Of a stretch of DNA of 64,000 bases, positions 27,569-64,000 are shown one piece after another. A program made the position numbers and the translations under genes. The notes under the pieces are model-generated. The model was not told the origin of the DNA. It saw only the letters and a program-made list of their open reading frames with translations, and made no database searches. Numbering within the stretch: the stretch's first letter is position 1; every line of letters starts with the position of its first letter. The DNA comes from Acidilutibacter cellobiosedens (GTDB lineage Bacteria > Bacillota > Clostridia > Tissierellales > Acidilutibacteraceae), in NCBI RefSeq assembly GCF_004103715.1, contig NZ_CP035282.1, forward strand, positions 1,974,673-2,038,672, given 5' to 3'.

Positions 27569-30500
27569 CTAAAACATGGTAAGCTGTTCTTTTTCTCCGA
27601 GTCTCGATAAAACCTGGGGATCATTATCTTTAAAAAAAGCATACTTTATCTCTCTTTCTTTAGTGAATATCTGAGTATCTTTGTCTAAAGAAGGACGAAG
27701 TCTGCAACTGTACACTATTGGAAAATAATCTCTTATATATTTTCCTTCGCTGTGAGCAGTCAAAGCTATTATTTGAAACCCCAACTGTTCGGCAATAAAG
27801 AATACGGGATCCAAAACATGGTTACTTGAAGCTTCTCCGAACGGATTATCCAATATAACCGTACGGTTCCTCTTTTGTTCGAAATTTATACTCTGCTTTT
27901 TTTCAGCAAGATAATTCAATATCCCCAAAAATAAAGTCATATTTTTACTCCATTTTTCCCCGCCGGACCAAGAATTCGTTTTTTCCCAAGACACGGGAAT
28001 ACTATTTACCTTACCGTCATTCGTAACTTTTCTGCATTTTACTTTTATTCCGTCCCCTGCCATAAGGGCTTTCATAAGCTGCTTGGCTTGAAATTTATCT
28101 TCTATATATTTTCTTACGGAAGACTTATCTTCTTTTCCCTCTTCATCCTTAAATTCATTGCTTTCAATATCTTTAATCATAATATTTATATAATTTCTTA
28201 TTTCTTCCTTCCCAAATTCTTCTTTCCATTCCGGAACGTCAATTATATATATTTTTTTTGATTTGTCGTCTACCTTTATCCTCGTCTTCTTAGAAATAGA
28301 CCCTATTTCCTGAGCAAGGGACTTTAAATAAGAATTAAGATATTTCACAAACTGGCTTATCTCCTTATCATGCTCCATCATATCCATTTCCAATATATTT
28401 ACGGTTTTGTCAATTCTTTTATCTATGTTTTTCTGCCATTCAATAATATCATCATATTTATCTTTATATTTAATCCCCCATAACGCCATGTTTTTCAATC
28501 TGGGTTCGCTTATGTGTTCACTGCAAAACATCTCAAAGTCCCGTTTTTCTTTATCTACTTTAATTATATTTTCCTCTGTTTCCTTTTTTATATTTTCAAG
28601 GGAGTTCAAAACGAGACTAACATATTTCATTCTATCATAAGGAAGCCCTTGAATCATATCATCGGATAAACCTAAGGATATGACATTATCAGACAGATAT
28701 TCGTATTTTTCATTTTTCAGCCTCAAATTATTCAAAACTTCTTCTATTGATTTTAGTTCTTTATCCCATTTTTCTTCCATGGAATTCAAATAATCAATTC
28801 TCTTACCCAATTCGATCTTCTCATCATCTATCTCTTTCTTCACATTTCCCAAGGAATCGGTAAATTCCACTATCTTATCATAAACCTTAAAATAATCTTC
28901 TTCTTTGACTTCATATTTACTTTTAATATTCTGATATTTTTCTTTAAATCTATTTAATTCTTTTTCTTTTTTATCCAGCAGGGGAGAAAGAACTTTTATA
29001 CTTTTAATCAAATCCTCGATTTCGGCTTCTCCGTATATGGGAAATTCCATATCCTTTTCTGACTGATATTTGGCACGTAAAATCAAATTCTTTAAATCCT
29101 TCCGATGCTCTTCTTTTGCATCAGAAATTTTCACTATATTATACGATATATTTTCTCTGTCCTTCTGCTTCTTATTTAATACATCTTTCAATTCCTTTCT
29201 TTCTCTCTTTAAAACTTCTATGGAAATCGGAGAATATTCGGGAACAAAATCTCTGACTTCCATATACAATTCGTCTTTGCTTAAAGAATCAATATAACCT
29301 TTAATCTTATTTAGTTCTAAAAGTAATTTTTCAGATATTCCCCTGTACCTTTCTGTTTCCTTTTTATTCTCTTCCTTTTTTTTATTGTTTTCCTCAATTT
29401 TAAAATCCAATCGGAATAAATCTTTTTTTATACCTTTCACGGAGTTTTTGAAATTTAAATACTTTCCGGCTTCCACAATATTTTTATTTAATACATTTTG
29501 TTCTTCTTGCAAATTGTTGATTTTATTTCCCGCATTTTTTATATCGTTATCTATCTGCAATACTCTTTTTTCTCCTTCTTCTATATTGCATTTTATCGTA
29601 TTTATTTCCTCATCAGTATGTTTGTAATCCTCTTTTAACATAGTAAAATCCTCATAAGGATATTGGTCTAAAAATTCTTTTATTTTGTTTAAAACTTTAG
29701 TATACCTTTCCAACTCTGTTTCTTTTTCTTTCCTTGCCCGGGTAGCGCTTTCGGCTTTTTTTTGTCCTTCGGTTTTTTTAGCCTGAAAATCTTCTCTCTT
29801 TATATTATCCTTCCATACCGAAGGATAGAGAAAAATATCATTTTCTATTTTTCCTCCTTCCAAAAGGAGCTGTGCTTTGGATTGAGTCAAAATTCCAATG
29901 GGACAGCTGATTTTATCTATATTCCTTTTAAGTTTTTCATGTAATTTATTTTCACCGTTATCCGCAACAATTACGGATGATGCCCAATAAGGATAGTTCT
30001 GATAATACTCTGTTTCATCCTTATTCAAAACGGCAGCCGCCCTTCCGATATACTGAGCACCGGATTCCAAAAAAACGAAGTTATTCCTCCACTGATTTAT
30101 CCATGAATCCAGCATGGGTTCGGCAGTAAAATACTCATTATCCTTATAATCATCGGAAAACCTGTGAGATATCCTTTCATTTATCAGAAGTTCTTCCCTT
30201 TCCCGCCTGATTCTCTCACATTTATCTTCTAAAGCCGCTACTATCTGTTCTTTTTTTATATACAAACTGTTTATATGCTCATAACCTGAAATCAGCTCCT
30301 TTATCTTGATTAACAATTCCTTTTCTTCATTTTCTATTCTTTCTATTTTCTCTCCCAAAACTCCCCTGTTATCTGAAAGCTGCTCCTGTTTTTCCCTGTA
30401 AGAACTTAATTCGGCATTGATACGGTTTTTCTCCTCATACATCTCTTTCAGCCTCTCACGGCGTTCTACTAAATCCTTTTCCAGAAAATTAATTTTATCC

Positions 30501-31999: not shown

Positions 32000-32735
32000 T
32001 TTTTCTCTCCTTTCCTTCTCTTTCCGCTTGATACATAAAATCTAAAATTCCTCTGTTGAATTCATATTCCATATAGTATTTTTGAACAATTGTCTTGGCT
32101 TTCTCCGTAAGTTCTATTTCGTCATTTCCTATATCAGTTATAAGCCCTTGATTTTCCAAAAATCTTTTCACCGTATTTAAAAAGCTGAGCCTGCTGACGG
32201 TCCTGGCATCTTGGACTTTTACGTTTTCCCTCAAATCATCCATTGCTTCCCACTTTTCCACTATTCCCACCCAATTATATTCGCTATCCTTCTCAATCTT
32301 TTTCAGCTCATCTTTGTCTATTTCCTTAATTGAGGAAATATGATTATTTAGAGAAGAAAGCCATTCCTTCATGGGTAAAAAATTCCTTGTTGCTTCGGTG
32401 CTCTGATAGCTGTCGTAAAATTCCCCGAATAAAACGATTATAGCCACATACATAAGATATATATCCAAGTTTACTGCTCTCGAAGGTAGATACTCTTTTT
32501 TAATCTCTTCATTTGATACATGAAATGGTGAAAGAGGTTCCGTTGGAACCAAATATACATATTCTCCCGCAGGTATAACAGTACACCCCACAACTGATGA
32601 AAATTGATTTACTAAGTCTCTTACCTTGTCATCGGTTATATAAAGCCTCATTTCATCTTTCTCGCAAAAACCGTTGGCTGCAAGGTAAGAATATATTTTA
32701 AACGCATTCAAAACTTCAACATCCCTATATTCCAT
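31968..32735 (-). CDS. jetB: Wadjet kleisin-partner protein JetB (MksE-like)
   Basis: A 255-aa soluble, mostly helical protein with winged-helix-like segments (EVLNAFKIYSYLAANGF at the start; VSRLSFLNTVKRFLENQGLI near residue 185). It matches the small MukE/MksE-like subunit of Wadjet complexes by size, place and content. AGAGGAGA lies before the ATG. The gene overlaps the end of jetA by 11 nt and the start of jetC by 32 nt, so it is translationally coupled. It would bridge the kleisin JetA and the JetC heads. Confidence 0.85.
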   Translation of the reverse strand: MEYRDVEVLNAFKIYSYLAANGFCEKDEMRLYITDDKVRDLVNQFSSVVGCTVIPAGEYVYLVPTEPLSPFHVSNEEIKKEYLPSRAVNLDIYLMYVAIIVLFGEFYDSYQSTEATRNFLPMKEWLSSLNNHISSIKEIDKDELKKIEKDSEYNWVGIVEKWEAMDDLRENVKVQDARTVSRLSFLNTVKRFLENQGLITDIGNDEIELTEKAKTIVQKYYMEYEFNRGILDFMYQAEREGKERKNAVHIENKVH

Positions 32736-34233
32736 CTGTATTCTCCTCTAATCTCATAACCATATTCTTTATTGAAAATCTTTTATTGCCGTAAACTATT
32801 CCGTCCTTCTCAACTACAGTTAGTTTTATCCTTTTACCTTTAAAGATTTCAAATGCATCCTTAAACAATTCATTGTTATCATATTCTGTGTCATTCAAAA
32901 TAATAGGGGATTTCTGATGAAGTATTATCCAAAAATCATAAAAACTCCTGTGATTTAATATATCTTCATCCTCAGATTGCATATTTCCGACAACTTCTTC
33001 TAAAGTAATTTCATTTTTGTTTCTCATCATCTTAATAACGATCTCCATTATTTTTCTAAAATTAAATTTTGTAATATTAAGGTATTCATCTATAATTTCC
33101 CCTTCTTGGGGCTCGGCAAATTCATAAATATCCTCACTTTCCCTTTCCGATTCTATCTTTTGTTCATAAAAAACTCTCAGAGGAGACCAGGTTTTTGCCA
33201 TCGACAAATACATAAACGGATTTATAATGTACCTTGACGCCCCAAGGGGCAGAGGTATAGATATAAGCCTTTTTGTTATTTCCTCCTCAAAATTAAAAGA
33301 TTCAACTCCTATAAAATATAATGATTCCTGAGCTGATTCCAAAGCATTTGTCTTTAAAGATATGCTGTTCTTAAGCAATTGCCTGTGCTCACTATGTACT
33401 TCGTCTAATTCATTATGAATTTTCCTTATTAATTCATAAGCCTTTCTGTCTTTTTCATCTTTAATTTCGTATTCCATTTTGTTTTTCGTATCGTTTACAA
33501 AATTTAGAAGTTCATCAAACTCTTCATTCTCTCTTGCAAGCCTTAAGTTTATATCCTCTATAAGGTTTTTATATCTTTCATAGGATTCTTCGGAAACAAT
33601 ATTTCGATTTATTTCATGGCCTATTTTAATTATTCTGTCTTTAAGGTTGCCGACAGCTAACCTCATCTCGTCAATCTGCCTCAAAGCCCCGGCAAATTCC
33701 CCTTTTTCCAGCTGTTTCCTCAATAGAAGCTGATTTATGGATATTTGAAATTCGCTGAAATATTCTCTTGTGGAAAATACAAGTTCAAGTCCTTGCTCAT
33801 CCAATGTATAATACTGGATATTCGATTTTGTATCGGACAGCCCGGATTTCAATATTGAATAATATACGGTTTCGTATCTTCTTTTTTCCCAATTATAAAA
33901 AGTCTTGCTGTTTCTTTTTCCGCTGGGAGGCCTAAAAGCATCAATAATATTTCTTGCTGCTCTTTCAAATCCTTCAATATTCAAATCTATTCTTCCGCCA
34001 TTTACTTCGGCAAAAAACTGTGCAAGTTCCTTCACTCCCGTATTTCTGTTTCTCATTATCATATTTTCGAAAAAAAACAACAGAGAAAGTAATCCCAAAC
34101 TAAAATAATCTATAAAGTTTCCGCTGTTATCTTTTTCTCTTTTATTTTCCAGTTTAAACAAGGGTTCATATAAGAAAAGCCTCCCCACTCTTTCTCCATA
34201 ATTATCAAGTATTCCCCTTATGTTTATGTCCAC
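32725..34233 (-). CDS. jetA: Wadjet kleisin-like protein JetA (MksF-like)
   Basis: A 502-aa protein whose C-terminal part and long central helices (about residues 185-310) fit the MukF/MksF kleisin of condensin-like complexes. I recognise it as the clostridial JetA family, probably type II Wadjet, but the type needs profile comparison. GTG 34233 lies 8 nt after GGAGG. The TTG at 34248 is inside that region and cannot use it. Its start overlaps the end of jetD by 10 nt. With JetB and JetC it would form the DNA-extruding motor. Confidence 0.87.
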   Translation of the reverse strand: MDINIRGILDNYGERVGRLFLYEPLFKLENKREKDNSGNFIDYFSLGLLSLLFFFENMIMRNRNTGVKELAQFFAEVNGGRIDLNIEGFERAARNIIDAFRPPSGKRNSKTFYNWEKRRYETVYYSILKSGLSDTKSNIQYYTLDEQGLELVFSTREYFSEFQISINQLLLRKQLEKGEFAGALRQIDEMRLAVGNLKDRIIKIGHEINRNIVSEESYERYKNLIEDINLRLARENEEFDELLNFVNDTKNKMEYEIKDEKDRKAYELIRKIHNELDEVHSEHRQLLKNSISLKTNALESAQESLYFIGVESFNFEEEITKRLISIPLPLGASRYIINPFMYLSMAKTWSPLRVFYEQKIESERESEDIYEFAEPQEGEIIDEYLNITKFNFRKIMEIVIKMMRNKNEITLEEVVGNMQSEDEDILNHRSFYDFWIILHQKSPIILNDTEYDNNELFKDAFEIFKGKRIKLTVVEKDGIVYGNKRFSIKNMVMRLEENTDGI

Positions 34234-35255
34234 GAAATTTTCCTCCAAATTTCCCTCATCTTCTCCTTTTCCAATCCTTCCTGAGGATAGTATCCTCCTC
34301 TTTTCAGCATATCCATAATCCTGTCTTTATAATCAACGCTGAAATTATTTAAAAAATTTTTCACAGCTTCATCGTTATGGATTTGTCCATGTTTTCCGTA
34401 AGAAAAATGATTTTTAAAAAATTCCTTATAAAAATCCACGGCAAGAAAAGCTTCTCTTTTTTCATTTACGGCATTCCATATGGATATTCCCTCATAATCC
34501 AGATCTCCGAAGTAAAAAACTTTATTTTGCTCGCATCCAAGCCTCAGCTGGTCTTCCAGTACAGATATCCCCGAGGTTATCTTCCAACCGGCACCATAAA
34601 CCAAAGAAGTAAATTCCGTATTTTCAATATCATCCATTAAAGCATAAAATGTAGATTTATTCTCCACTATCAGATGCATATGAGTTTCACCCAGAATTTT
34701 ATTTCTGTTTACAGCAATCATCAAAGGGTCCGGCATGAAATTTATATTAAGCCTTTTCCACAGTCCTATCCTTTCTAATATGACTTTTCCCCCTTCTTCA
34801 TCTATCCACTTTTCATTTCCCACAAACCTGTAAGAAAGCTCTGAGGTCGTATATTCACCGGTAGGAATTCCTTTTGAATTTAAATAAGAATTGATCTTCA
34901 TTATATAAGGAAGATCCCTTTCCCAATATTTTTCTCCGAGAGAGTAATAGTTCTGCAGATTTATATTTTTATTCGCTTTCAATTGATAGGAAGCTATTCT
35001 GTCGACAATTGCCATATTGAAATATGATTTGTTAATCCTAAAACTATTTGGAATGGAAATAGGTTTATCGGTAGTGCCGCTGGCTTTAATAGGAGAAAGT
35101 ATTCCTTCCTTTAACATATCATTAATTACTACCGCATAATCATCATATTCCACATCTCCCCGCAAGTGATCTTCTATCTCCCATAAACATATGGTCTTTT
35201 TACGGCAATTCTTTAGGAAATAATATAGAATTCTTCTTACAATTTCGGGTTTCAT
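34224..35255 (-). CDS. jetD: Wadjet nuclease JetD (Toprim)
   Basis: A 343-aa protein. The N-terminal half holds a winged-helix-like region. The C-terminal half is a Toprim nuclease domain: a glutamate in the HLIVENKSTFYALMDDIENT region, then KVFYFGDLDYEGISIWNAV with the DxD metal-binding pair. JetD cuts DNA held by the JetABC loop extruder, which removes plasmids. It is the first gene of the operon, 44 nt after a thioesterase gene. GAGAGG lies about 12 nt before the ATG, a rather long spacing. Confidence 0.9.
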   Translation of the reverse strand: MKPEIVRRILYYFLKNCRKKTICLWEIEDHLRGDVEYDDYAVVINDMLKEGILSPIKASGTTDKPISIPNSFRINKSYFNMAIVDRIASYQLKANKNINLQNYYSLGEKYWERDLPYIMKINSYLNSKGIPTGEYTTSELSYRFVGNEKWIDEEGGKVILERIGLWKRLNINFMPDPLMIAVNRNKILGETHMHLIVENKSTFYALMDDIENTEFTSLVYGAGWKITSGISVLEDQLRLGCEQNKVFYFGDLDYEGISIWNAVNEKREAFLAVDFYKEFFKNHFSYGKHGQIHNDEAVKNFLNNFSVDYKDRIMDMLKRGGYYPQEGLEKEKMREIWRKISWT

Positions 35256-35725: not shown

Positions 35726-35925
35726 AAATAACCCGCCTTTCTTCATTCAGCATACAATCAATTAATAATACTCCAGTGATATTATTATATCACTTCAATC
35801 TTTCTCAAACAATCAAATATATTTAACTTGGTGTTAGAATATAAATAGTACAAGTCAAAATGAGAAAATCCAAAATAAATATAAATTATGGTACAATGTA
35901 TGTATCGTAGAAGGAGGAACTCATT

Positions 35926-36210
35926 ATGGCTAAACAATATGATAAACAATTCAAACTGGATGCAATCCAGTATTATCAGGATCACAAAGACCTTGGGCTT
36001 ATAGGTTGTGCTGAAAACCTTGGTATCAGCCAGCAGAGCCTTTCCAGATGGAAGAAGGGACTTGAACAAACTGGAGAGATTGTGTGCCGTGGCTCCGGGA
36101 ATTATTCTTCCGACGATGAAAAAGAAATAGCACGTCTTAAGCGTGAACTTCGTGACACAAAGGATGCCCTTGATGTCTTAAAAAAAGCTATAAGCATTCT
36201 GGGAAGATAA
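35926..36210 (+). CDS. IS3-family transposase OrfA
   Basis: A 94-aa protein with a helix-turn-helix (QYYQDHKDLGLIGCAENLGI, then QQSLSRWKKGL) and a C-terminal leucine-zipper-like helix. It binds the IS ends. AAGGAGGA lies before the ATG. Seven A followed by G at 36180-36187 allow a -1 shift into OrfB, whose frame is open from there. The fused OrfAB would be the active transposase. Confidence 0.92.
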   Translation: MAKQYDKQFKLDAIQYYQDHKDLGLIGCAENLGISQQSLSRWKKGLEQTGEIVCRGSGNYSSDDEKEIARLKRELRDTKDALDVLKKAISILGR

Positions 36211-37121
36211 CAGAAGCTATTTATCATGAAGTTTCTGAAAAGACGGAGGCTGCCAAAAAAGAAAATCGCCGGGTTTCCGTCTCCGGAATGCTGAAAATTT
36301 TAGGCGTTTCACGCTCTGGATACCTTGCCTGGCAGAAACGTGTGCCCTCTGATACACAAAAGCGCAAAGAGGCTGTTAAAGTTAAAATCAAGGATATATA
36401 CGATGATTCAAAGCAGAATTATGGTGCACCAAAGATTACCCAAAAGCTTCAGCAGGAAGGTGAAACCATCTCTGAACGTACCGTAGGCAAATATATGAAG
36501 GAAATGGGTATTAAAGCTCAGTGGATAAAGCCATGGACTGCAACAACCAAAGATTCCGATTTTAGTACGGAGCTTCATAATATCCTTGATGAACAATTTA
36601 ACCCTGACCGTCCAAATGCAGTATGGTGCAGCGATATTACTTATATCTGGGCAACAAGAGGATTCGTCTATCTAATAAGCATTATGGATCTATATTCCAG
36701 AAAAATCATTGCATGGATGCTCTCAAAAACGATGGAAGTTTCCTGCGTAATAAATACAATAAACAAAGCTAAAGCGAGGAGAAATACAGACCTACCACTT
36801 ATTTTACATAGTGACCGCGGAAGCCAGTATGTTTCCAATGAATATATAAAAGCTACTGCTAAAATGCAGAGAAGCTATTCAAAAAAGGCTTTCCCATGGG
36901 ATAACGCCTGTATTGAATCGTTTCATGCAATAATCAAACGTGAGTGGCTGAATCGATTTAAAATTCGCAATTATCAACAGGCATACAAGCTTGTATTTGA
37001 ATACATTGAAGCTTTCTACAATACAAAACGAATTCACAGTCATTGCAACTATATGTCACCCGATGATTTCGAGAAGCTGTATGCTAAAGTACAGAATGAC
37101 AGCTTACTTTTAGCTGGTTAA
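36180..37121 (+). CDS. IS3-family transposase OrfB (DDE), expressed by -1 frameshift
   Basis: The frame is open from the slip site (KKSYKHSGKITEA) to 37121. An internal ATG at 36288 would give 277 aa alone. The DDE integrase core shows AVWCSDITYIW (first Asp), LILHSDRGSQY (second Asp) and DNACIESFHAIIKRE (Glu). The HTH_21 region (VKIKDIYDDSKQNYGAPKI) is also present. Both genes look intact, so the element may be mobile. Confidence 0.9.
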   Translation, partial: KKSYKHSGKITEAIYHEVSEKTEAAKKENRRVSVSGMLKILGVSRSGYLAWQKRVPSDTQKRKEAVKVKIKDIYDDSKQNYGAPKITQKLQQEGETISERTVGKYMKEMGIKAQWIKPWTATTKDSDFSTELHNILDEQFNPDRPNAVWCSDITYIWATRGFVYLISIMDLYSRKIIAWMLSKTMEVSCVINTINKAKARRNTDLPLILHSDRGSQYVSNEYIKATAKMQRSYSKKAFPWDNACIESFHAIIKREWLNRFKIRNYQQAYKLVFEYIEAFYNTKRIHSHCNYMSPDDFEKLYAKVQNDSLLLAG

Positions 37122-37209
37122 TATGAGGATATTTTTCTCATTTTAATTTGTACTAAATCTTGACATAGGACCATTCTGATTGAAACAGTTGATGAGGATT
37201 ATCACATTG

Positions 37210-38222
37210 GTTTCAATTCCTCATTAGGTATTATAAATTTGGTCGTGTCGGTCGTGCTTCTAAGGATAGCCCTGTTTCAATTCCTCATTAGGTATTATAA
37301 ATGTCACATTTACCGCTGGTTTTTGTAGGGGCCAGCTAGTTTCAATTCCTCATTAGGTATTATAAATGTTGTCCCGTATTCTTTCAATTCATCGTACATT
37401 TCTGGTTTCAATTCCTCATTAGGTATTATAAATGCTTTTTTTATTGAGAAGGAGGGATAGAATGAAGTTGTTTCAATTCCTCATTAGGTATTATAAATCA
37501 TTAGAAAAGTTGGAAAAGAGGTGAAAGTATGAAAGTTTCAATTCCTCATTAGGTATTATAAATAACAGATATAAAATATCCTTTCTACTTTGGAAATTTG
37601 TTTCAATTCCTCATTAGGTATTATAAATTTGAGGCTTTTGAACAGCATATTAGGGATAGCGAATGTTTCAATTCCTCATTAGGTATTATAAATCTTTCAC
37701 AAGAGCGTTATCCGCTCCGCATAGAATAGCTTGTTTCAATTCCTCATTAGGTATTATAAATTATGAACATCCAGAGAAGTTCGTTTCTTCAAGCGAGTTT
37801 CAATTCCTCATTAGGTATTATAAATGAGAGCGTTTTAGAGCGTTTCAGAGGTATTCTGACGTGTTTCAATTCCTCATTAGGTATTATAAATTTATTGATG
37901 TTCCAAGCTCCTGCCATTGACATTCCGGTTTCAATTCCTCATTAGGTATTATAAATAAAACTGAAATCCATATTCCCAAGCTTGCAGATCAGAGTTTCAA
38001 TTCCTCATTAGGTATTATAAATATGTCTCCGGAAGCGATAACAAAAAAAGTATGCAGTGATTTGTTTCAATTCCTCATTAGGTATTATAAATTGTAATCA
38101 GCTGCATCTGTCGCAATTATATAAGCGAGTTTCAATTCCTCATTAGGTATTATAAATAATTTCGTCCTCGGCCTCTTTCTTCTCTTCATCATAGTTTCAA
38201 TTCCTCATTAGGTATTATAAAA
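37210..38222 (-). CRISPR. CRISPR array 1 (leaderless left part), 16 repeats
   Basis: Sixteen 29-nt repeats beginning GTTTCAATTCCTCATTAGG and ending TATTATAAAT, with 15 spacers of about 35-41 nt. Read on the minus strand the repeat ends in ATTGAAAC, the standard crRNA 5' handle, so transcription is leftward. The last repeat (38194-38222) has lost its final T and runs into IS110 DNA. No leader follows it. I read this as the older part of array 2, cut off by the IS110 insertion. It can be transcribed only by read-through of the element. Confidence 0.95.
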
Positions 38223-38391
38223 AAAAGACCAGCTAATTAAAGTCAATAGATTTTAGCAAAATAATATTAAATATTTTTTGAAAAATTAATAATAAAAAAA
38301 TGCACACCTAATAAACCAATGATTATTGGTTTAAAAAACGAAGCTGTTATTTAAAATTGTTCTTTGAAAACTAAACATTAAATACAGATCA

Positions 38392-39681
38392 TTAGGCTAC
38401 TGAAGACCTAGTAAGAAGTAGTTCCTCATGCTCTTCTGGGGTTCTTAGCTCAAAAGGCTTTTTGTCTCTCATGACGGCGAATATAATATTTACTAATTTT
38501 CTCATTACAGCACCTAATGCAACCTTTTTGGGCTTGTTTGTACACTTTTTTTGGTAGAACTCATAGAGCACTGGATTAGTTTTGTCACCATTTCTCTTAC
38601 TTCGAATATTGGCTAAAGCAGTTGTAAAGATGACCCTACGAAGCAATCTAGAGCCCCTTTTAGACATTTTGTTACGGGTTCCGGTGAATTCACCCGATTG
38701 ATTAACAGAGGGGTCAATTCCAAAGAAAGCTACAAGTTTATTGGGGCTAGAAAATGCAGAAAAATCACCAACCTCAGCAAGTATCGTGGCAGCAGTTAGT
38801 ATCCCGATACCAGGAATACTGCATAGCAGATTAATAATAGGTGCCAATACAGGATTATCTTCTAAAGAATCTGCTAAAATAATTTCATTAATTGCGTCAA
38901 GTATGTCTTTTTGGGCATCTTGTAAGGTTCTTACCATGGAAATATTAACTTTGAGAATGGCTAGATTTCCAGGGTTATTGATGCTTAAATCTTTAAATTC
39001 CTTAGCTTTTAAAACCAAAAGTTCATATTTTTCAGTGGACCACGCTAAACCTTTTTTAGAAGTTTTTTCAATAAGTGATATTAATGTTTGTTTGTTAGCC
39101 TTTAGAATTTGCTTAGGTGAAGGATACCTATCAAGTACTGCTAAGGCAGTGTTTGAATATACATTTTGGAAGACATCTGTAAAGTTTAGCATTACTTGAT
39201 CAATAATGCCAATAAGCCTATTCTTGTAAGTAGTAAGTTCATCACCTAACTTGTAATATTGGCGACAAAGGCTTTTAAGGCAGTCAATAACATCATCAGG
39301 AACAACAGTAGTCTTAATAAAAGAAAACCTATAAAGCAATGCAATCTTATGGGCATCAAATTTATCATTTTTTACTTTCCTTATTCCAATATTTTTGATA
39401 GAATCAGATTGGATGGGGTTTATGATAGAGACCTCAAATCCAGAATCAGAAAGATAGTGGAAGAGGATTTTGTGATAGTGCCCAGTGGATTCTAAGACTA
39501 CGACAGGCCTAATTGCAAAATCCTTTTCTGCTTTTTGCAATAGACCTATAGCCTCTTTAATACTGTCAATTGAATCATGATAGATCTTAATACGATGATA
39601 AATCTCATTATTAGGGGACAAAATACACATCTCACTAAAATTTTTACCAACATCAATTCCAGCTACAGGTGGATAATCCAT
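38392..39681 (-). CDS. IS110-family transposase/recombinase
   Basis: A 429-aa recombinase. The N-terminal RuvC-like (DEDD) domain starts VAGIDVGKNFSEMCIL with its first Asp, and VVVLESTGHYHKILFHYL holds the Glu. The C-terminal Transposase_20 domain reads LLCSIPGIGILTAATILAEVG and then KMSKRGSRLLRRVIFTTA with the catalytic serine. ATG 39681 follows AGGAGG. A longer in-frame extension to 39759 has no ribosome site. IS110 enzymes work with a bridge RNA encoded in the element's non-coding end. Confidence 0.93.
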   Translation of the reverse strand: MDYPPVAGIDVGKNFSEMCILSPNNEIYHRIKIYHDSIDSIKEAIGLLQKAEKDFAIRPVVVLESTGHYHKILFHYLSDSGFEVSIINPIQSDSIKNIGIRKVKNDKFDAHKIALLYRFSFIKTTVVPDDVIDCLKSLCRQYYKLGDELTTYKNRLIGIIDQVMLNFTDVFQNVYSNTALAVLDRYPSPKQILKANKQTLISLIEKTSKKGLAWSTEKYELLVLKAKEFKDLSINNPGNLAILKVNISMVRTLQDAQKDILDAINEIILADSLEDNPVLAPIINLLCSIPGIGILTAATILAEVGDFSAFSSPNKLVAFFGIDPSVNQSGEFTGTRNKMSKRGSRLLRRVIFTTALANIRSKRNGDKTNPVLYEFYQKKCTNKPKKVALGAVMRKLVNIIFAVMRDKKPFELRTPEEHEELLLTRSSVA

Positions 39682-40058
39682 AAGAAACCTCCTAAATAAA
39701 GTATTTGGATTTAGAAATCCATTCCTTCTCAAATAAGTACACAACCTTGCATGTGACACGAGGAACCAGTGTTAACTGGCCTCAACCAGCCAAATAATGT
39801 AATCTTATGAGAATGGATAGATACTCTTTTTTACAGGTAGTCGCATAAAGGCGTCCTAGGAGGAATTGCATCAACCTCCAAATCCATAAATTAATTATAC
39901 AATATTGTTCATGGTTCAGGCCAAATTAAACTGGCTTTATGGCTAGGGTGAGAAGCCAAAGAAATGTATTTAATGATTAGAAAAGAAGACTATATTATTA
40001 TTTAAGAAATTGATAATTATTACAGTGGAAAACTGTAATTTGATTATAACTATATTGT
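39682..40058 (-). ncRNA. Candidate bridge RNA region of the IS110 element
   Basis: This 377-nt non-coding region upstream of the recombinase gene is where IS110-group elements encode their bridge RNA. On the minus strand several self-complementary parts stand out: GGCTTCTCACCCTAGCC, GCCAGTTTAATTTGGC, GGAGGTTGATGCAATTCCTCC with GGAGG/CCTCC arms (about 39858-39878), and GGCTGGTTGAGGCCAG (about 39777-39792). I could not assign the target- and donor-guide loops, so the call rests on family knowledge and position. Confidence 0.4.
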
Positions 40059-40094
40059 ACAAGGAGGAGAGTAAATGAAAGAAAACCCATACAG

Positions 40095-42669
40095 GTTTCA
40101 ATTCCTCATTAGGTATTATAAATTAAAATTGCAGATATGGCAATGACTGATATGGCTGAGTTTCAATTCCTCATTAGGTATTATAAATTAAAATTGCAGA
40201 TATGGCAATGACTGATATGGCTGAGTTTCAATTCCTCATTAGGTATTATAAATAAGAAATTGTTTTTAGCAAATGAGATAATAGAAAGTGAGTTTCAATT
40301 CCTCATTAGGTATTATAAATCTAAAATTGCAGATATGGCAATGACTGATATGGCTGAGTTTCAATTCCTCATTAGGTATTATAAATGTTCTCCTTTCGGA
40401 ATTGGAGTATACCCGCCTTTACTGTTTCAATTCCTCATTAGGTATTATAAATAGAAACTCTTTACCGGTGAGAGCGTGACCGTTGAACGGTTTCAATTCC
40501 TCATTAGGTATTATAAATTAGCAAGAGCATTGAGAGAGGCAGGCTTTGATACCGAGTTTCAATTCCTCATTAGGTATTATAAATAATGATGATACATCAT
40601 GCCAGTGCATGGGCCGACGGGTTTCAATTCCTCATTAGGTATTATAAATCTTCTTACCAAGAAAGAACTAATTAAGAGATGGAAAAGTTTCAATTCCTCA
40701 TTAGGTATTATAAATCCCGGCTCTTACATCAGTTGGTTCTGTTGTCCCGAAGTTTCAATTCCTCATTAGGTATTATAAATTATGCTACATATTTAAATTT
40801 GCTATCTCCGGTTGCAGTTTCAATTCCTCATTAGGTATTATAAATTCCTGAATATTAAGCAAACTTATTTCATCCATGCTGTTTCAATTCCTCATTAGGT
40901 ATTATAAATAAATTCCCTATAAGCAACTTCCAGAGTGTTATTATTGTTTCAATTCCTCATTAGGTATTATAAATTACATCATTTTCTGCCATGCTTTATC
41001 ACTCCTTTTTTGTTTCAATTCCTCATTAGGTATTATAAATTTTATTACATTTTTAAATTCTATATCTAAAGATGTAAGTTTCAATTCCTCATTAGGTATT
41101 ATAAATGAGAAGAAAAATGAAAAAGAAATATGAATTGACAGGGTTTCAATTCCTCATTAGGTATTATAAATTTATAAAATTATTAAAGCTGCTATCTAAA
41201 GAACCCATGTTTCAATTCCTCATTAGGTATTATAAATATGGGGAGACAACCCCCTGATGAACTGGTACACAAAGTTTCAATTCCTCATTAGGTATTATAA
41301 ATGTTATCCAGCAGAAAGAACCTTTATATTTAAACAAGTTTCAATTCCTCATTAGGTATTATAAATAAGTGGAAGTATACAAGCCAATGAAAGAGCTTGT
41401 ATAGTTTCAATTCCTCATTAGGTATTATAAATATGGGCACGACGGCATATGCCTTGTCTTGGCCTACGTTTCAATTCCTCATTAGGTATTATAAATTATA
41501 TCATCCGCATATATTTTATATATCGGATGGGAGGTTTCAATTCCTCATTAGGTATTATAAATTTTTTTGGCTTGGCTTTCAGAGATGCAATCACAAGTTT
41601 CAATTCCTCATTAGGTATTATAAATCTGGCGATTGAGGACTTCTCAATACAGATGGCTATGTTTCAATTCCTCATTAGGTATTATAAATTGTAAATACAA
41701 AGGAACAAGGAGCCTAAGGAGTGATAGTTTCAATTCCTCATTAGGTATTATAAATTGCTGTATTCCTCAATACGTCCGAAAATTGTCCCGGTTTCAATTC
41801 CTCATTAGGTATTATAAATTGCCTGGGCGGTTCCATATTCACCTCCTTCACCCAAGTTTCAATTCCTCATTAGGTATTATAAATAAAGGAGAATGCAAGT
41901 TAGATTCTCCTTGAATTACAGTTTCAATTCCTCATTAGGTATTATAAATCCAACCGGCAAATATAAAAAAGGCTGGGAGGTAACAGGTTTCAATTCCTCA
42001 TTAGGTATTATAAATAATACATGTAGTGTTTGAAAACGCTATAAATCCATAGTTTCAATTCCTCATTAGGTATTATAAATCATATGAAATGATAGCGGAC
42101 CCGAAGGCGGAGAAAGCGTTTCAATTCCTCATTAGGTATTATAAATCTTGGTGGGAGTCCTTGTCAGGGGTTTAGTAAAACAGGTTTCAATTCCTCATTA
42201 GGTATTATAAATTTTTGCACAATCGAATACTTCGTGAGTATTTAAACATAGTTTCAATTCCTCATTAGGTATTATAAATCTTCTATATCCGATTGCAATC
42301 CATTGCTAAAAGGAAGTTTCAATTCCTCATTAGGTATTATAAATAACTATAGTTTTAGTACCCGAGCCAGTTGAAACGCGTTTCAATTCCTCATTAGGTA
42401 TTATAAATAACGGTGCCAATGCCGGTTTGCGTCGCTGGGCTGGAGTTTCAATTCCTCATTAGGTATTATAAATAACTTGTTTCCGGGACCAGTCTAAAGG
42501 ACAGAGGGGGTTTCAATTCCTCATTAGGTATTATAAATGGGCAGAAGAAAGCAAAGGCAAAACCGAAAAAAACGAGTTTCAATTCCTCATTAGGTATTAT
42601 AAATTCGAGAATGTAGCGATTGAAGGTTTTGAAGAAATCGGTTTCAATTCCTCATTAGGTATTATAAAT
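40095..42669 (-). CRISPR. CRISPR array 2 (leader-proximal part), 40 repeats
   Basis: Forty copies of the same 29-nt repeat with 39 spacers of 34-38 nt. No variant repeat was noticed. The leader is on the right (42670 onward) and transcription is leftward. Spacers 1, 2 and 4 from the left are the same sequence (TAAAATTGCAGATATGGC...), the third copy having one extra base at its left end. A half-spacer (40059-40094) left of the first repeat marks the IS110 junction with array 1. It uses the same repeat as array 3, which lies next to the cas genes. Confidence 0.97.
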
Positions 42670-42838
42670 CCATCTATACATTGATATTATTATATTCTTT
42701 ATTCTTTGTCAAACTAAAAAATTTGTATAATTTTTTTAATAATTTCCCTGTATTTATTGGTATTACTTAATTATACAAAAAAATAAATTGTTGTCGATCC
42801 CCTGAACTTTTTACCTTATTAGGGGTCGACAACAATTT
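42670..42838 (-). promoter_or_regulatory. Leader of CRISPR array 2
   Basis: AT-rich DNA directly upstream (minus strand) of the newest repeat. It ends in a long dyad at 42786-42838: AAATTGTTGTCGATCCCCT and AGGGGTCGACAACAATTT around a 17-nt loop. The inner sequence TTTTTACCTTATTA and the GTCGA arms recur in the leader of array 3. It should contain the array promoter and the Cas1-Cas2 recognition signals. Confidence 0.75.
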
Positions 42839-42968: not shown

Positions 42969-44135
42969 CTATACTTTAATTTTAAATATAGTAAGAATAA
43001 ATTCTTCTCCTTGCTCCATCAGTAATGGTTCTTTGGCTCCCGATTCTTTCATATTCTTAATGATCATAGGAATTCCTCTTCCTAACTGGTCAATATATCT
43101 CATATTCTCCATATATTTTACCAAAAATGGATTTCGAGCATAAGACACTCCTATTTTCATTTTTTCTATAGTAACTGTATTGGGAAGTCTTCCCGGACTT
43201 CTAAATTCTATTCTATCGTCAAACATAAATACCCTAATTTTAGAACCACTAATACTATAGTTTCTATGCACCAATGAATTAACAATAGCTTCTCTCAACA
43301 CTATTATTGGATATTCTTCTTTTTCCTCTCTCCTAAGACCATTTATAATAGAAGGCGTTCGCATATTATTCCTTATAATCACCATTAATTGATCGGCAAT
43401 ATCTTGAATACGTCCTGTTATTACTTTTTTATCTATTAATTCATCCGTTATCTCATTACCTTTAAAATGAGCAAAACTTACGCCATTTTGCGGAAGATAC
43501 CTCTCCGGCTCCTTTCCAAATATGAGTAATCCTCCTACTGTACAGACTGTCCCCGTTTCAACTTCTTTTAATATATCCGCATTAATCAATATTCTTCGTG
43601 TAGATTCACTGTTTTCTTCAAATAAATCAAAAGTATTGTATTTCATAAAATAATCTCTTATAATATCAACATTTAAATCTTTGATAGTTGTTCCTTCCAC
43701 CGGAGATATATCAAAATGTAAGTTTCCTGTTCCTTCAAAAAGTCTTAACAATTCCTCTCGTGAGGCAATTCTTTTTGTAGTACCGACTCTTATATAATAT
43801 TTATGGTCAACAGTATAATACGGTTTATTTAACCCTTTTGGAATACTTACTGCTGCCACTTTCTTACCGCCTACTTTCACTTCTTCAAAAACCGGTATAA
43901 TATGAGGAATACAATTGTTTCTGCATATATTCATTATTGTTTCCTCAATTTTACTATTTTCAATTCCTTTAATATCTCCGTTATCATTCACCCCAATAAG
44001 TACAATACCACCTTCAGAATTAGCAAAAGCCACAAATTCTTCAGCCAATTCCTTTGCTCGAATACTTTCTTCTTTAAATTCAACATATAAATTTTCACCG
44101 TTGGATATCATATCAAGAATACTTCTTTCATCCAT
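42969..44135 (-). CDS. AlbA_2 domain ATP-binding protein (Schlafen/RecG-like type)
   Basis: A 388-aa protein. The N-terminal AlbA_2/divergent-AAA domain reads ENLYVEFKEES...FANSEGGIVLIGVNDNGDIKGI (about residues 14-58). The C-terminal part has a GHKL-like ATP-binding region (IVLREAIVNSLVHRNYSISG near 275) and GRGIPMIIKNMKESG. Proteins of this layout are often called transcriptional regulators or RecG-like ATP-binding proteins, and some belong to defence islands. The exact role is unknown. GGGGGA lies before the ATG. The gene sits between the leader of array 2 and a decayed CRISPR locus. Confidence 0.83.
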   Translation of the reverse strand: MDERSILDMISNGENLYVEFKEESIRAKELAEEFVAFANSEGGIVLIGVNDNGDIKGIENSKIEETIMNICRNNCIPHIIPVFEEVKVGGKKVAAVSIPKGLNKPYYTVDHKYYIRVGTTKRIASREELLRLFEGTGNLHFDISPVEGTTIKDLNVDIIRDYFMKYNTFDLFEENSESTRRILINADILKEVETGTVCTVGGLLIFGKEPERYLPQNGVSFAHFKGNEITDELIDKKVITGRIQDIADQLMVIIRNNMRTPSIINGLRREEKEEYPIIVLREAIVNSLVHRNYSISGSKIRVFMFDDRIEFRSPGRLPNTVTIEKMKIGVSYARNPFLVKYMENMRYIDQLGRGIPMIIKNMKESGAKEPLLMEQGEEFILTIFKIKV

Positions 44136-47227: not shown

Positions 47228-47513
47228 ATAAAAAAATCCTTCATTCCTATAAATACAGTCTTTAACTGTAATTATAGGGACGAAGGATTTAATTCCATTC
47301 CGCGGTACCACCCTTATTATGACAACACCGTCATCACTCAAATCGGACCTAACAGTCTTATCCCTTGTAACGATGGGCTTTCGGATTTGCCTAATAGAAT
47401 TAATCGTTTAGCAAATCTGCTCAAGAGGGAATATTACATATCATCTTAATGTTGGCTTCCACCTTATCCAACTCTCTGTAAAAAAGATTAAATATCTTTC
47501 TCTCCATCACAGC
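47228..47513 (-). promoter_or_regulatory. T-box riboswitch of the ABC importer operon
   Basis: The minus strand carries GGGTGGTACCGCGG (47300-47313), the conserved T-box core. It is followed by a strong terminator (AATCCTTC.../GAAGGATT arms, 47235-47289) ending in seven T. Stem I with AGAGAG bulge and GTTGG/CCAAC distal stem is visible. The specifier region reads GTAATATTCCCTCTTGAGC. AUU, UAU, UUC and AAU are all possible, so the amino acid is left open. Confidence 0.9.
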
Positions 47514-47533
47514 ATTTATTTATAATGAATATA

Positions 47534-55889: not shown

Positions 55890-55897
55890 AAAGAAAT

Positions 55898-55934: not shown

Positions 55935-55980
55935 ATGCTTAATTTTCAGGAGGTGATTAGTGTGGCCGCAAGTGTACAGA

Positions 55981-59449: not shown

Positions 59450-60442
59450 TTACCATTTAGCTATAAATGGTAGATATTGTTCATCTTCGGTTATAAATTT
59501 CTGCAATTTGTATGCTTCAAGGCGTATCAATCTTTTATAGCTTACGCGATTAGGGAAATTCGGGTACTTTATCGTAGTCTCAAGTTTTTCATTAAATTCC
59601 TTAATAAACTTCATTCGCCCCTCATCACTAAGTATAATGCTTCCCAAATCTTTGTTAAAGTCTTTTTTAGTTATTATTTTCTTATTAATTACAGAAAATA
59701 TTGTCCTATCAACTATTATAGGTTTAAAAATTTCTGCTACATCAAGGTTAAGTGAAAATCTCCTGTCATTTGTACTATGCAGATATCCAATACGAGGATC
59801 CAATTGAGTCTGATACAGTTGGGATAAAACCAAAGTATAAAGCATAGAATTTCCAAAACTTATCAGAGAATTAATTCTATCTTTAGGAGGCCTTTTTGTC
59901 CTGGAAGTAAATGTAAAGTCTTCATCATCCAAAATTTTATTAAAACTTTTATAGTAGACCTGTCTTACATTGCCTTCAATTGCCATGATAGTTTCTATTG
60001 TACTCTGGAGCTGCAATGTATCAAGAAGATTTGTTATTTCTTCTATTTCCCCTTCTAAGTTAGAATTTCTCCTCTCATAATACTTCAAAACCTGCAGTAT
60101 GTTTTTTATAGCACCATCGATGAATGTCTTAGCTATAATAACCCTTTTCTCATAATTCAAATATGCCTCACTTTGCTTTAAAATTACGTATCCAGAATTT
60201 AAATATTCCCTTGGATAAAAAGTTCCCACATAGTATTCATAGTAATTGAAAAAATGAATTGTAATTTTATTTGAACATACAAATTCAAGAAAGTTTTTAT
60301 TTACATCAACCTCTCCGAAAATATAAATTGACTCTACGTTATTCACTGGAATATACTTTTTTCCTTCTTCTCCTTCGAACATTAATGTATTATCCTTTCG
60401 GCACAACCTGCCATTATTAAAAATAAACATATCCTTCTTCAC
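59450..60442 (-). CDS. cas1: CRISPR-associated endonuclease Cas1 (type I-B)
   Basis: A 330-aa integrase for new spacers. The catalytic triad region is visible: Glu in MAIEGNVRQVYY (about 155), His in GYLHSTNDRRFSLNLD (about 220) and Asp/Glu in LDVAEIFKPIIVDR. GTG 60442 lies 8 nt after AAGGGGG and gives the usual Cas1 length. A longer frame reaching 60547 would overlap cas4 by 92 nt and lacks a ribosome site. Cas1 works with Cas2 and Cas4 on both leaders. Confidence 0.95.
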   Translation of the reverse strand: MKKDMFIFNNGRLCRKDNTLMFEGEEGKKYIPVNNVESIYIFGEVDVNKNFLEFVCSNKITIHFFNYYEYYVGTFYPREYLNSGYVILKQSEAYLNYEKRVIIAKTFIDGAIKNILQVLKYYERRNSNLEGEIEEITNLLDTLQLQSTIETIMAIEGNVRQVYYKSFNKILDDEDFTFTSRTKRPPKDRINSLISFGNSMLYTLVLSQLYQTQLDPRIGYLHSTNDRRFSLNLDVAEIFKPIIVDRTIFSVINKKIITKKDFNKDLGSIILSDEGRMKFIKEFNEKLETTIKYPNFPNRVSYKRLIRLEAYKLQKFITEDEQYLPFIAKW

Positions 60443-60455
60443 TATTCCGACCCCC

Positions 60456-60947
60456 TTAAGAATAACAATATTCATTATATCCGCAATTATAGCAAAATTT
60501 ACACTTTTCAACTTTAGGTGGAGTTTCATTCTGCATAATATCAACAATACTATTCTTCATTACCTCAAGTTCTTGCAAAGTCTCTTCATTTAAAATAATT
60601 TCTGTTCTCTTCTTTTCTTCGAGATAAAGTAGCACCCCTTCAGCATCTATTCCCGCATCTTTTAATACCTTAAGATAATATAGAAGTTGCCATTTTGATG
60701 CCTGACTGTATTTTGAAGTCTTTTTAGTTTCACCTATTACAAGTTTTTCTTTAGTACTTAATATAACATCAAATTTGACATTACCAAATGCTATCTCCTT
60801 CTTATTCCTTTTATACGTTTGCTCATGGAGAAATCTCCCAAAATCTATGTTTTCATCATTTTGATCCGGAACAATATTTCTCGACATGAGCCACACCTCT
60901 CTTTTGCATATATTGTAATACCAGATTAAAGTACCGTTTACCTCCAT
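60456..60947 (-). CDS. cas4: CRISPR-associated exonuclease Cas4
   Basis: A 163-aa RecB-like nuclease that trims prespacers and selects the PAM side. Motifs: an N-terminal cysteine (YNICKREVW), FGNVKFDVIL, GETKKTSKY (Glu and Lys), QLLYYL, and a C-terminal cysteine cluster CKFCYNCGYNEYC for a [4Fe-4S] centre. AGGTGA precedes the ATG. It is 13 nt ahead of cas1, which fits their known physical association. Confidence 0.93.
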   Translation of the reverse strand: MEVNGTLIWYYNICKREVWLMSRNIVPDQNDENIDFGRFLHEQTYKRNKKEIAFGNVKFDVILSTKEKLVIGETKKTSKYSQASKWQLLYYLKVLKDAGIDAEGVLLYLEEKKRTEIILNEETLQELEVMKNSIVDIMQNETPPKVEKCKFCYNCGYNEYCYS

Positions 60948-61006: not shown

Positions 61007-63361
61007 TTAGAAAAAGAACATACTGTCATCTTCTTCTCTCTTATAACCTGTCATGTCATCATAATAACTACCTATTCCGATTCTCGGTATATAAAGTATT
61101 TCATACTCCGGAGTAACGGTAAATTTATCAAGGGTCCTCCAATACTTCTCCGGCATCGATATAAAATACTGCTGCATCTCTTTTTTAATAGGAATAAGTT
61201 TTTTTTGTCTTTCATTTATATTTTGTATTTCATAACAGTTTCTATATTCTTCAAGTAAGTCCTCTGCCTTTTCATCATACTCTATAAATACATCCAAATA
61301 TCCTCTGTTTTCTTCTATTAAAGAAAAATGCCCTACTTCCCATTTGTCATTTTCGTCAAAATTCATTTCCTGTATCGATTTAATGAAATTCTTTGAAGGC
61401 TGCTGGGATTTTATATCGCTTATTTTTTTATAGTATTCATTTATAAGTTGCAGGTAATCTTTTTCTTCAACTTTTTCATACGGCCCCAAAATCTCGTCAA
61501 CTACATTGATAGTATCCAATCCATAAATTTTTTCTCCGAAAGTCCTTCCGTCTTCTCCTACCATTTTTATTAGATTTACATTTCCAATAAAGCCCCGGTT
61601 ATTTCTATTGCATCTTCCCGCACATTGTATTATTGAATCAAGAGGAGCAATGTCCCTATACACTTCATCAAAGTCTAAATTAACCCCTGCTTCTACTACT
61701 TGGGTAGTAACTAAAATGACTTTTTCTTTACTTTTCAATTTCTTTTTTATTAAATTTATCCTTTCCACACGATGCTTAGGTATCAAATTGGTCGACAAAT
61801 AATAAAGCTGATGCCCATATTCGTTATTATTTTCAAGTGTTTCCTTTATCAACTTGTATAATTCAAGAGACTGACCAATCGTATTCACCACAATCATATA
61901 TGACTTGTCTCTTCTATTTTTGCTGAAATAATCGCAAAATCCCTCTAAAGTCATACCTTCATCTAACTTACATACAATTTGGGTTCTGTTAAACTTCTCA
62001 CAATAATTTTCATAAATATCACTATCCAAAAGTTCAAAAGCTTTCGGGAAAAATAAAGGCTTTGTAGCTGTCATTATTATAATATGGCAGTTAAGTTCTT
62101 CCGCTAATTCAGTAAATACATAATTCAAAAGCTCAAAATATTTTATATTTACAGCTTGGACCTCATCCATCAAAACAATAGAATCTTTAAGAGCATAAAA
62201 TTTTTTAAGCATCTTATTTTTGGCTCCTATGGCTGTTTCTAAAAATTGTACAAATGTAGTAACAATAACCCCGCTTTCCCAGTTTTCCATAAAAGTCTGG
62301 TAATCAACTGCATTATAAATTTCATCATCTCTGTCCTTTTCATAATCGCTTAAATGGTGGTGTTTCATAATATAGTGGTATTCACTGCCTTTTACATTTT
62401 CATCGGCAATATATAAATCTCTGATATCATTATAGTTTTGATCTATAATTGAAGTATAGGGAAGAACATATATGACCTTTTTTAGTTCAGAATTTAACTC
62501 TTTCAATTTCAATGCCGCAAAAAACCCCGTCATGGTTTTCCCAGAACCTGTAGGAGCAGTAATTGAAAATACTTTTTTATTACAATTCTTAGAGATATTC
62601 TCCTGAACCCTTTTTAAAATGCTGTTTCTCATATTATTAATTTCGTTTTTTTCTTTATTCGAGAATTCGTCCTCTCTTATTTTATTAAGTTCCGAATATC
62701 CAATAAATTTTTGTTCAAATGGCTTAACTTTTGATGCACTTACTTTGTCAGAAGCAATTAACGTTGAAAAAATTTGTTGATGAATCCAATATGCATCTTT
62801 TTCATCATATAATAAAAGAATTTTCTTACGTAAAAGTATTAATGTTTTTTCAATTGAATTTTCATCATCCATAAAAGCCTTAAAATCTTCTCCGAATCCT
62901 AATGATTTATATTCATTATAAATATCCGTATAATTTTCTTTAATGTTTTGTTTTTGCTTATTCAAAATTTGAAGTTTCCAATACATAGCATCGGATTTAT
63001 TTATTTTATTTCCGTGATATGACATTGGAAGATACTTTTCAAAATTCTTCACCCTGCTGTGATGAGACAAAACGGCGTTATAAGCAATAAGGGGGAGAAC
63101 TCCCTCCCCCATTTCCCGATTAAACATAACATATGCCGTAAAAACAGCCGATATGTGAGCATGGTTTCCTTCCGGCTTTTCTCCTTTCTCTCTTTTAAAA
63201 AGCCTGTCTTGAAAGTATGTCGTGTACTTGCCGAAGTCATGACCGCAAGCAACAATTTCATTTATCTTAGAATATTCCTTATTCCCATAAATCAGCGAAT
63301 ATTCCTTTACCTGAGATAAATGTACGATAAGTTTCATATCAGGATGAGAATAAAATTCCAT
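61007..63361 (-). CDS. cas3: CRISPR-associated helicase-nuclease Cas3 (HD fused)
   Basis: A 784-aa protein. The N-terminal HD nuclease has ACGHDFGKYTTYFQDRL (about residues 37-53) and AVLSHHSRV. A superfamily 2 helicase follows with Walker A SITAPTGSGKTMTGF (about 270), DEVQ box SIVLMDEVQAVN and motif VI IIQCAGRCNRNNRG. It is recruited by Cascade to unwind and degrade target DNA. ATG 63361 follows GAAGGTGAT. The frame extends 51 nt further upstream into the end of cas5 without a ribosome site. Confidence 0.95.
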   Translation of the reverse strand: MEFYSHPDMKLIVHLSQVKEYSLIYGNKEYSKINEIVACGHDFGKYTTYFQDRLFKREKGEKPEGNHAHISAVFTAYVMFNREMGEGVLPLIAYNAVLSHHSRVKNFEKYLPMSYHGNKINKSDAMYWKLQILNKQKQNIKENYTDIYNEYKSLGFGEDFKAFMDDENSIEKTLILLRKKILLLYDEKDAYWIHQQIFSTLIASDKVSASKVKPFEQKFIGYSELNKIREDEFSNKEKNEINNMRNSILKRVQENISKNCNKKVFSITAPTGSGKTMTGFFAALKLKELNSELKKVIYVLPYTSIIDQNYNDIRDLYIADENVKGSEYHYIMKHHHLSDYEKDRDDEIYNAVDYQTFMENWESGVIVTTFVQFLETAIGAKNKMLKKFYALKDSIVLMDEVQAVNIKYFELLNYVFTELAEELNCHIIIMTATKPLFFPKAFELLDSDIYENYCEKFNRTQIVCKLDEGMTLEGFCDYFSKNRRDKSYMIVVNTIGQSLELYKLIKETLENNNEYGHQLYYLSTNLIPKHRVERINLIKKKLKSKEKVILVTTQVVEAGVNLDFDEVYRDIAPLDSIIQCAGRCNRNNRGFIGNVNLIKMVGEDGRTFGEKIYGLDTINVVDEILGPYEKVEEKDYLQLINEYYKKISDIKSQQPSKNFIKSIQEMNFDENDKWEVGHFSLIEENRGYLDVFIEYDEKAEDLLEEYRNCYEIQNINERQKKLIPIKKEMQQYFISMPEKYWRTLDKFTVTPEYEILYIPRIGIGSYYDDMTGYKREEDDSMFFF

Positions 63362-63371
63362 ATTATCACCT

Positions 63372-64000
63372 TCACATAAATAATATATTTTCAGATTTAT
63401 ACGATTCTTCACCGCTCTTTACAACATAATAATCATTTTTCAATTTGAGGTCTATTTTAACCCCCCTATGATCAAATATATAGGTACCGCTTTTTTTTAT
63501 TTCCCTGTTCTCATCAAAGTCCCTGGGCATACGTTCCTTCACAAGCTGATAGTTTTCAATCTTTATATTCTCTATCTTCTCTGACGGAACAACGGAACTT
63601 ATAGGCACATATTCATTACTTTTTTCAGAATATATTTCACATCTTTGTACATTTTCAATATCCCCTTGAAAAAATACTGTTCCCATACACGGAGGATAAG
63701 CGAATTTATTCTTTATAAGCCGTTCCTGAAGTTCTTCCATAAAACCTTCTTCGGAAGCAGCATATATTCTGTAAGATACTATACTGTCATCATTACAACC
63801 TGTGATAATTTCAAAAGGAATTTGAGTATGCTCGTCGGGAAAACAAAGCTGCGATGCAGACGTAGCCTTAATATAATTCAAAGTTTGAGTAAGGCTTCGG
63901 GTAGGTCCGTTTTTCTTTACAGCAATATGAAGTTTATTGGACGACAGTACTTTATAATAGCTGTCCCTCTCATAGCCCAAAATGGAAGCAATGAGGCCTT
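63372..64000 (-). CDS. cas5: CRISPR-associated protein Cas5 (type I-B), N-terminus beyond the right edge
   Basis: A RAMP-fold Cascade subunit that caps the crRNA 5' handle. The visible part begins GLIASILGYERDSYYKVL, the normal Cas5 helix after the first strand (TTLLGLIAS type), so only some 35-45 residues are missing. It ends 11 nt before cas3. The rest of Cascade (cas6, cas8b, cas7) should lie further right on the same strand. The type I-B call rests on gene order and family look and needs cas8b for proof. Confidence 0.88.
   Translation of the reverse strand, partial: GLIASILGYERDSYYKVLSSNKLHIAVKKNGPTRSLTQTLNYIKATSASQLCFPDEHTQIPFEIITGCNDDSIVSYRIYAASEEGFMEELQERLIKNKFAYPPCMGTVFFQGDIENVQRCEIYSEKSNEYVPISSVVPSEKIENIKIENYQLVKERMPRDFDENREIKKSGTYIFDHRGVKIDLKLKNDYYVVKSGEESYKSENILFM

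Follow-up and report, generated by a model that had tools for sequence, protein, structure and literature searches.

Three copies of one spacer, the last a base longer than the others, lie close together in a CRISPR array of Acidilutibacter cellobiosedens. The question that this locus raises is whether the longer copy was captured separately from the same protospacer or was made by copying within the array. The window analysed here is a stretch of 64,000 nucleotides (NZ_CP035282.1, positions 1,974,673 to 2,038,672), and coordinates without a prefix refer to it. The spacers concerned are the following.

40124..40159, minus strand (the crRNA strand): spacer copy 1, 36 nt
40189..40224, minus strand: spacer copy 2, 36 nt, same as copy 1, which it adjoins
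40254..40291, minus strand: unrelated spacer between copies 2 and 3, 38 nt
40321..40357, minus strand: spacer copy 3, 37 nt, with an extra base (C on the plus strand) at the PAM-distal end

Direct reading and a script agree that copies 1 and 2 are the same 36 nt and that copy 3 is a C followed by these 36 nt. The coordinates, the lengths, the identity of the pair and the additional C at the left end had been given in a preliminary description and are exact. Each of the three copies is flanked by exact 29-mer repeats, and their PAM-side ends are identical. Random agreement of two 36-mers has a p of ~1e-20 at the base composition of the window, which becomes ~1e-16 over all pairs of the 135 spacers considered below, so that chance is excluded for the repeated spacer. 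An all-against-all comparison of these spacers on both strands, based on exact common runs of at least 14 nt, identified it as the only repeated spacer. The other overlaps were one of 28 nt (opposite strands, two arrays) and one of 14 nt.

A type I-B CRISPR-Cas locus lies in the window, together with arrays whose repeat unit is GTTTCAATTCCTCATTAGGTATTATAAAT. In total 135 spacers lie between 140 repeats, with 100 spacers and 104 repeats in the window and 35 spacers and 36 repeats in an array at about G000:C1:1669741-1672043 of the same genome. A scan of the whole genome with at most one mismatch gave the same total (104 repeats forward and 36 reverse). The repeat is exact in 103 of the 104 cases in the window and in 35 of the 36 in the other array.

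37210..38222, minus strand: array part 1, 16 repeats (the last with one base changed), 15 spacers
40095..42669, minus strand: array part 2, 40 repeats, 39 spacers, leader side right
42670..42832, minus strand: leader-like flank, base adjoining the repeat C on the plus strand
59450..60547, minus strand: cas1 (type I-B Cas1b)
60456..60947, minus strand: cas4 (Cas4b)
61007..63412, minus strand: cas3 (Cas3b)
63372..63980, minus strand: cas5 (Cas5b), below the NCBIfam cut-off, with a PADLOC match

The flank that starts at 42670, taken together with the repeat, shares 91% identity over about 200 bases with the flank at G000:C1:1669572-1669769 and 69% with that at 58982, which belongs to the array ending at 59010. 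This conservation places the leader on the right and the crRNAs on the minus strand. Genes of the Cas1b, Cas4b, Cas3b and Cas5b types are found further right of the array, and the minus-strand end of the repeat is ATTGAAAC, which we take to be the usual type I-B 5' handle. Leader flank, cas genes and repeat end together bear out the earlier assignment of the right spacer end, common to all three copies, to the crRNA 5' (PAM) side; the extra C is PAM-distal. The type I-B assignment is based on Cas1b, Cas4b, Cas3 and Cas5b near the array, in an operon that extends beyond the end of the window. Cas5b scores 53.0 bits against the NCBIfam cut-off of 97 bits and matches the PADLOC Cas5b model at 4.3e-30. 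In an RNA-family search of 36000-60000 the array was without any match. Spacer lengths run from 34 to 41 nt (n = 135), with 2, 24, 66, 33, 7 and 2 spacers at 34 to 39 nt and one at 41 nt, and two spacers drawn at random are one base apart in length with a probability of 0.445.

Several other features accompany the arrays. At 55461-55981 a lone exact repeat is followed by 491 bases and then by the next array. This insert encodes a piece resembling the C-terminal end of a phage protein, which matches phrog_25063 (unknown function) at 1.5e-19, phrog_595 (head maturation protease) at 7.2e-11 and, below the cut-off, a Pfam ADP-ribosyltransferase model; a second product is a small protein matching phrog_8857 at 7.8e-5. 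No other long copy of the insert was found in the genome, and it is apparently an oversized phage-derived segment between two repeats. A stretch of 190 bases at G000:C1:2468188-2468377 shares 75% identity with the repeat and its leader-like flank. No array with the same repeat was found in the 3 kb stretch around it, and it is perhaps a leader remaining from a lost array. An intergenic pair resembling the CRISPR repeat, with starts 39 bases apart and 21 and 22 of 29 ungapped matches, is present in Paenibacillus phage Scottie (MH460825.1, L195:608-675) and could be a phage-borne mini-repeat unit. The window further contains a Wadjet-type system, with JetC, JetB, JetA and JetD at 27569-35255 (PADLOC JetC3/B3/A3/D3 models), a Schlafen AlbA_2 / RecG C-terminal-like protein next to the leader of the array (42969-44135) and a T-box leader on the minus strand (47273-47519), which lies upstream of an apparent ABC transporter gene cluster (judged by eye).

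Array parts 1 and 2 are separated by an insertion sequence.

38221..40067, minus strand: IS110-family element, splitting array parts 1 and 2, ends uncertain by several bases

When the flanks of this element are joined, a single repeat appears, whose last base is A in place of T, and after it comes a stretch with GGAGG and ATG. This stretch is 36-37 nt long if GGAGG is counted as target; should GGAGG be part of the IS110 end, it falls short of the normal spacer length. The two parts were thus most probably once a single array of 55 spacers. No leader-like sequence was found on the right side of array part 1 (37210-38222), which is probably the leader-distal remainder. The three copies occupy places 39, 38 and 36 from the leader, which in an array of 55 is away from the far end. 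The genome has six copies of the IS110 element, the other five (100% identical as listed) being located at G000:C1 2094566, 3628893, 3511123, 2404639 and 305955. The right end adjoins GGAGG in five of the six and GGGGG in one, an A-rich stretch lies on the left in all six, and ATG occurs within about 11 bases of the right end in four. It is as if the element targets Shine-Dalgarno sequences, unless GGAGG is part of the element end, and the copy in the array looks like one that landed in a spacer with a GGAGG...ATG-type sequence. An IS3-family element (35840-37172, ends by eye) directly adjoins the leader-distal end of array part 1.

Duplication of a repeat-spacer unit leaves an identical whole spacer next to its parent. 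This pattern holds for copies 1 and 2 and fails for copy 3. The preliminary description had attributed the identical pair to simple duplication, and since the two are adjacent and identical this is still the best reading. The presence of another spacer between copies 2 and 3 means that a single unit duplication cannot give copy 3. We estimate a probability of about 0.83 that the 37-nt copy is a separate capture of the same protospacer and the pair an ordinary duplication.

The source of the spacer was sought at several levels. In the assembled genome itself no match with up to three mismatches was found outside the array, so there is no assembled prophage that carries the protospacer. The array was also the only match among 249 genomes of the order (own genome included, up to three mismatches) and, for a 29-nt core with up to two mismatches, among 391 genomes of the class (own included, drawn from a larger group). 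The genomes of the 60- and 249-genome sets, both of which contain the own genome, belong to the same order, and none besides the own genome comes from this genus or this family. Searches of viral contigs, phages, plasmids and genome contigs likewise failed to give the exact protospacer. The phage collection gave 90% identity over 30 nt at best. A degenerate pattern requiring both Ile and Met had no match in the genome contigs, and one allowing Met or Ile found two homologs there, again without the exact protospacer.

The other spacers were searched likewise. For the 38-nt spacer at 40254-40291, an exact viral match was sought with 36 of the 38 bases and none was found. No convincing protospacer was found for the other spacers of the array at 37210-42669 in the best 60 of 179 phage records, nor for the array at 55981-59010 in the best 25 of 264. 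With the rows of the three copies removed, short matches of 136 spacers (the 135 plus the split one) to the 127 homolog loci described below reached at best 20 identical bases (spacer 56333, E 2e-5).

In the frame of a tape-measure gene the 36-nt spacer reads K-I-A-D-M-A-M-T-D-M-A. The matching genes are annotated as tape-measure genes in three Ruminococcus phages (90% over 30 nt; three of seven records matched), and viral contigs with the degenerate motif match up to 32 of the 36 bases, among the matches listed. As judged from these similarities, the target is a conserved motif of phage tail tape-measure proteins. The scan pattern was fixed as A-D-M-A-(I/M)-T-D-M-A-(D/E), with the preceding residues and the bases after GA left free; the neighbouring-base position was thereby unconstrained. 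The viral scan returned at least 120 entries and the homolog set is a sample. Of the 124 sites listed with at least 24 matches, the 60 given in full read (A/S/V)-x-x-ADMAxTDMxDNANK and three of the 124 have other PAM-side letters, and the neighbouring base over these sites, among the matches listed, is C in 66, T in 57 and G in one. For counts by class the best site per locus was taken from 127 loci, and one locus without the motif was dropped, leaving 126 loci with 90 distinct 63-nt sequences.

The class of a sequence is defined by the residue at the place that the spacer reads as Ile. Among the matches listed, the first base outside the PAM-distal end is a C in all distinct sequences of the Ile (11/11), Val (30/30), Lys (5/5), Met (6/6) and Ala (1/1) classes, while in the Tyr class it is T in 35 of 37 and C in two. 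Over all 90 distinct sequences listed this gives 55 C and 35 T, with every T in the Tyr class; C is found in seven of the eight distinct sequences listed with at least 30 of 36 matches. The base is the middle one of an Ala or Ser codon, or of a Val codon in the Tyr class. A search anchored on Lys-Ile found nine viral and two genome loci, with C in 11 of 11, which amount to just four distinct sequences. A viral pattern with Met required and the preceding residues free found two contigs; each has the C and begins with Gly-Ile. Going by the homologs, C would be the base expected for the Ile class of the spacer, not for the whole family. Since the Tyr class mostly has T, this expectation hinges on the target being placed in the Ile class.

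On the other side of the motif, the coding strand has TAA or CAA in all 90 distinct sequences listed, which corresponds to TTA or TTG (TTR) on the crRNA strand. These letters arise from an Asp-Asn pair (GAY-AAY), whichever synonymous codons are used. The target is noteworthy as a tape-measure motif in which the next two codons give TTR on the crRNA strand throughout (90/90 among the matches listed). The uniform PAM side fits a spacer end that is fixed by the PAM. We infer TTA/TTG as PAM from this one target alone, the other spacers here giving no backing.

The preliminary description had looked to the base beside the protospacer to tell capture from copying. The exact protospacer is lacking; the homologs of the Ile and Val classes do have the C, and those of the Tyr class have T instead. 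A C in the target is not unique evidence, and it is a weaker discriminator than was held earlier, because a 37-nt parent losing its C, or a leader base C, gives the same letter.

The first of these routes belongs to a history in which a single acquisition gave rise to the other copies inside the array, through recombination or slipped replication, and a single-base change followed (C lost from a 37-nt parent or gained). In the SpacerPlacer survey (PMC11472070, in the part available to us), duplications far outnumber the other classes of repeated spacer, with 695 duplications against eight reacquisitions and seven independent insertions among 805 duplication candidates. Re-acquisition is rare in these counts (15/805), which counts against independent capture. 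A duplication is also the best reading of the adjacent pair, and the loss of C from a 37-nt parent agrees with the base of the target family. However, the change would have to hit precisely the end base of about 37, and the position of copy 3 away from the pair calls for a block duplication plus loss or for an ectopic insertion of the 38-nt spacer. A gained C would equal the base of the target family merely by chance, and the nearly unchanged repeats show little decay. We regard such a copying history as unlikely. A sketch of the odds, which is to be read only as such, with assumed indel fractions of 0.3 to 0.05, prior odds of 15 to 695 and C at a frequency of 0.165 (0.188 on the plus strand of the window), favours re-acquisition by 73-435 to 1 over duplication plus insertion and by 12-72 to 1 over duplication plus deletion; the rates come from the available part of PMC11472070.

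The second route is a slip at integration, in which a 36-nt prespacer was separately integrated and Cas1-Cas2 cut one base into the leader, so that the extra C would be the last base of the leader. The base adjoining the first repeat is indeed C, the same as the extra letter, in three leader-like flanks (those of array part 2, of the 55981-58982 array and of the array at G000:C1:1669741). Were such slips common, long spacers would be expected to begin with C more often than short ones. Leaving out the three copies, a left-end C occurs in 11 of 42 spacers of at least 37 nt and in 17 of 90 shorter ones, which is no significant excess (Fisher p 0.37, a weak test), and the C is already predicted by the phage context of the Ile class. 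Such a slip is very improbable here, and it would still mean a separate integration.

An error of sequencing or assembly is hardly credible as the source of the C. Repeated units are hard to assemble, and the judgement is made from the assembly. On the other hand, the site is no homopolymer (AAATCTAAAA versus AAATTAAAA), the letter equals the target base of the Ile class, and spacer length varies naturally in these arrays.

Separate capture of the longer copy, as proposed in the preliminary description, is supported by the C of the Ile class, by the separating spacer and by the location of the difference at the end that is cut imprecisely. It is favoured because it takes one extra event of a known sort, at an end known to vary. 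The following course of events, with its PAM and its number of separate captures, is our inference. All three spacers would derive from a single protospacer, anchored by its PAM, within the tape-measure gene of a phage tail. The 36-nt copy would have been integrated first and then doubled in tandem, presumably by repeat-mediated slippage, after which the 38-nt neighbour would have been added at the leader. Afterwards the same protospacer would have been captured anew, with its PAM-side end fixed by the PAM and the cut at its far end falling a base beyond the earlier one; the result would be the 37-nt copy, which is closer to the leader.

A second case of double sampling is seen in the 28-nt overlap noted above. 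It links the spacer at 58358-58394 with spacer 20 of the array at G000:C1:1669741-1672043, on opposite strands, and it appears from the overlap that one invader locus was sampled twice. The 24-nt core of this pair has no viral match. The tape-measure protospacer may also be an acquisition hotspot, with all three copies captured independently, perhaps from different phages sharing the motif, although we give this little weight. If it were so, phages could not remove the PAM by a silent change, as the Asp-Asn pair writes TTR, and the array would hold a redundant record of a site at which mutation is difficult.

The wider use of the observation lies in the length difference. Repeated spacers are usually counted as duplications, and a difference in length at the PAM-distal end is a simple mark, readable within one genome, of separate capture. 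It can be counted over public arrays for an estimate of how frequently a protospacer is taken up again. Such a mark was not found in the titles and abstract openings of the papers listed, mostly outside subscription journals, and we claim no priority.

Several described systems resemble the present case, as far as the available parts of the papers go. In the type I-F system of Pectobacterium, spacers of altered length but with the normal PAM arise mainly through inaccurate cutting on the PAM-distal side (Staals 2016, PMC5059440). Copy 3 similarly keeps its PAM-side end and is longer at the far end; there, newly acquired spacers were followed by deep sequencing, whereas the present case is one natural example, found in an old section of a type I-B array. 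The type I-B system of Clostridium difficile is of the same subtype and has comparable spacer lengths, with nearly all new spacers at 34-40 bp and an average of 36-37 (PMC8406132). Its PAM is YCN, while the target family here suggests TTR. A review states that repeated blocks were presumed to have arisen by duplication and mentions that a second encounter could conceivably yield the same spacer twice (PMC8047081). Unit duplication as described there accounts for the adjacent identical copies 1 and 2, but not for copy 3, which has a different end and lies apart from them. The SpacerPlacer classes (PMC11472070) likewise concern a spacer that enters an array more than once, and are reconstructed over aligned arrays of several genomes, in contrast to the length difference within one genome used here. 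Re-acquisition of one protospacer is a known process that is rarely documented; imprecise PAM-distal cutting and repeated uptake have both been described already, and this locus adds another example.
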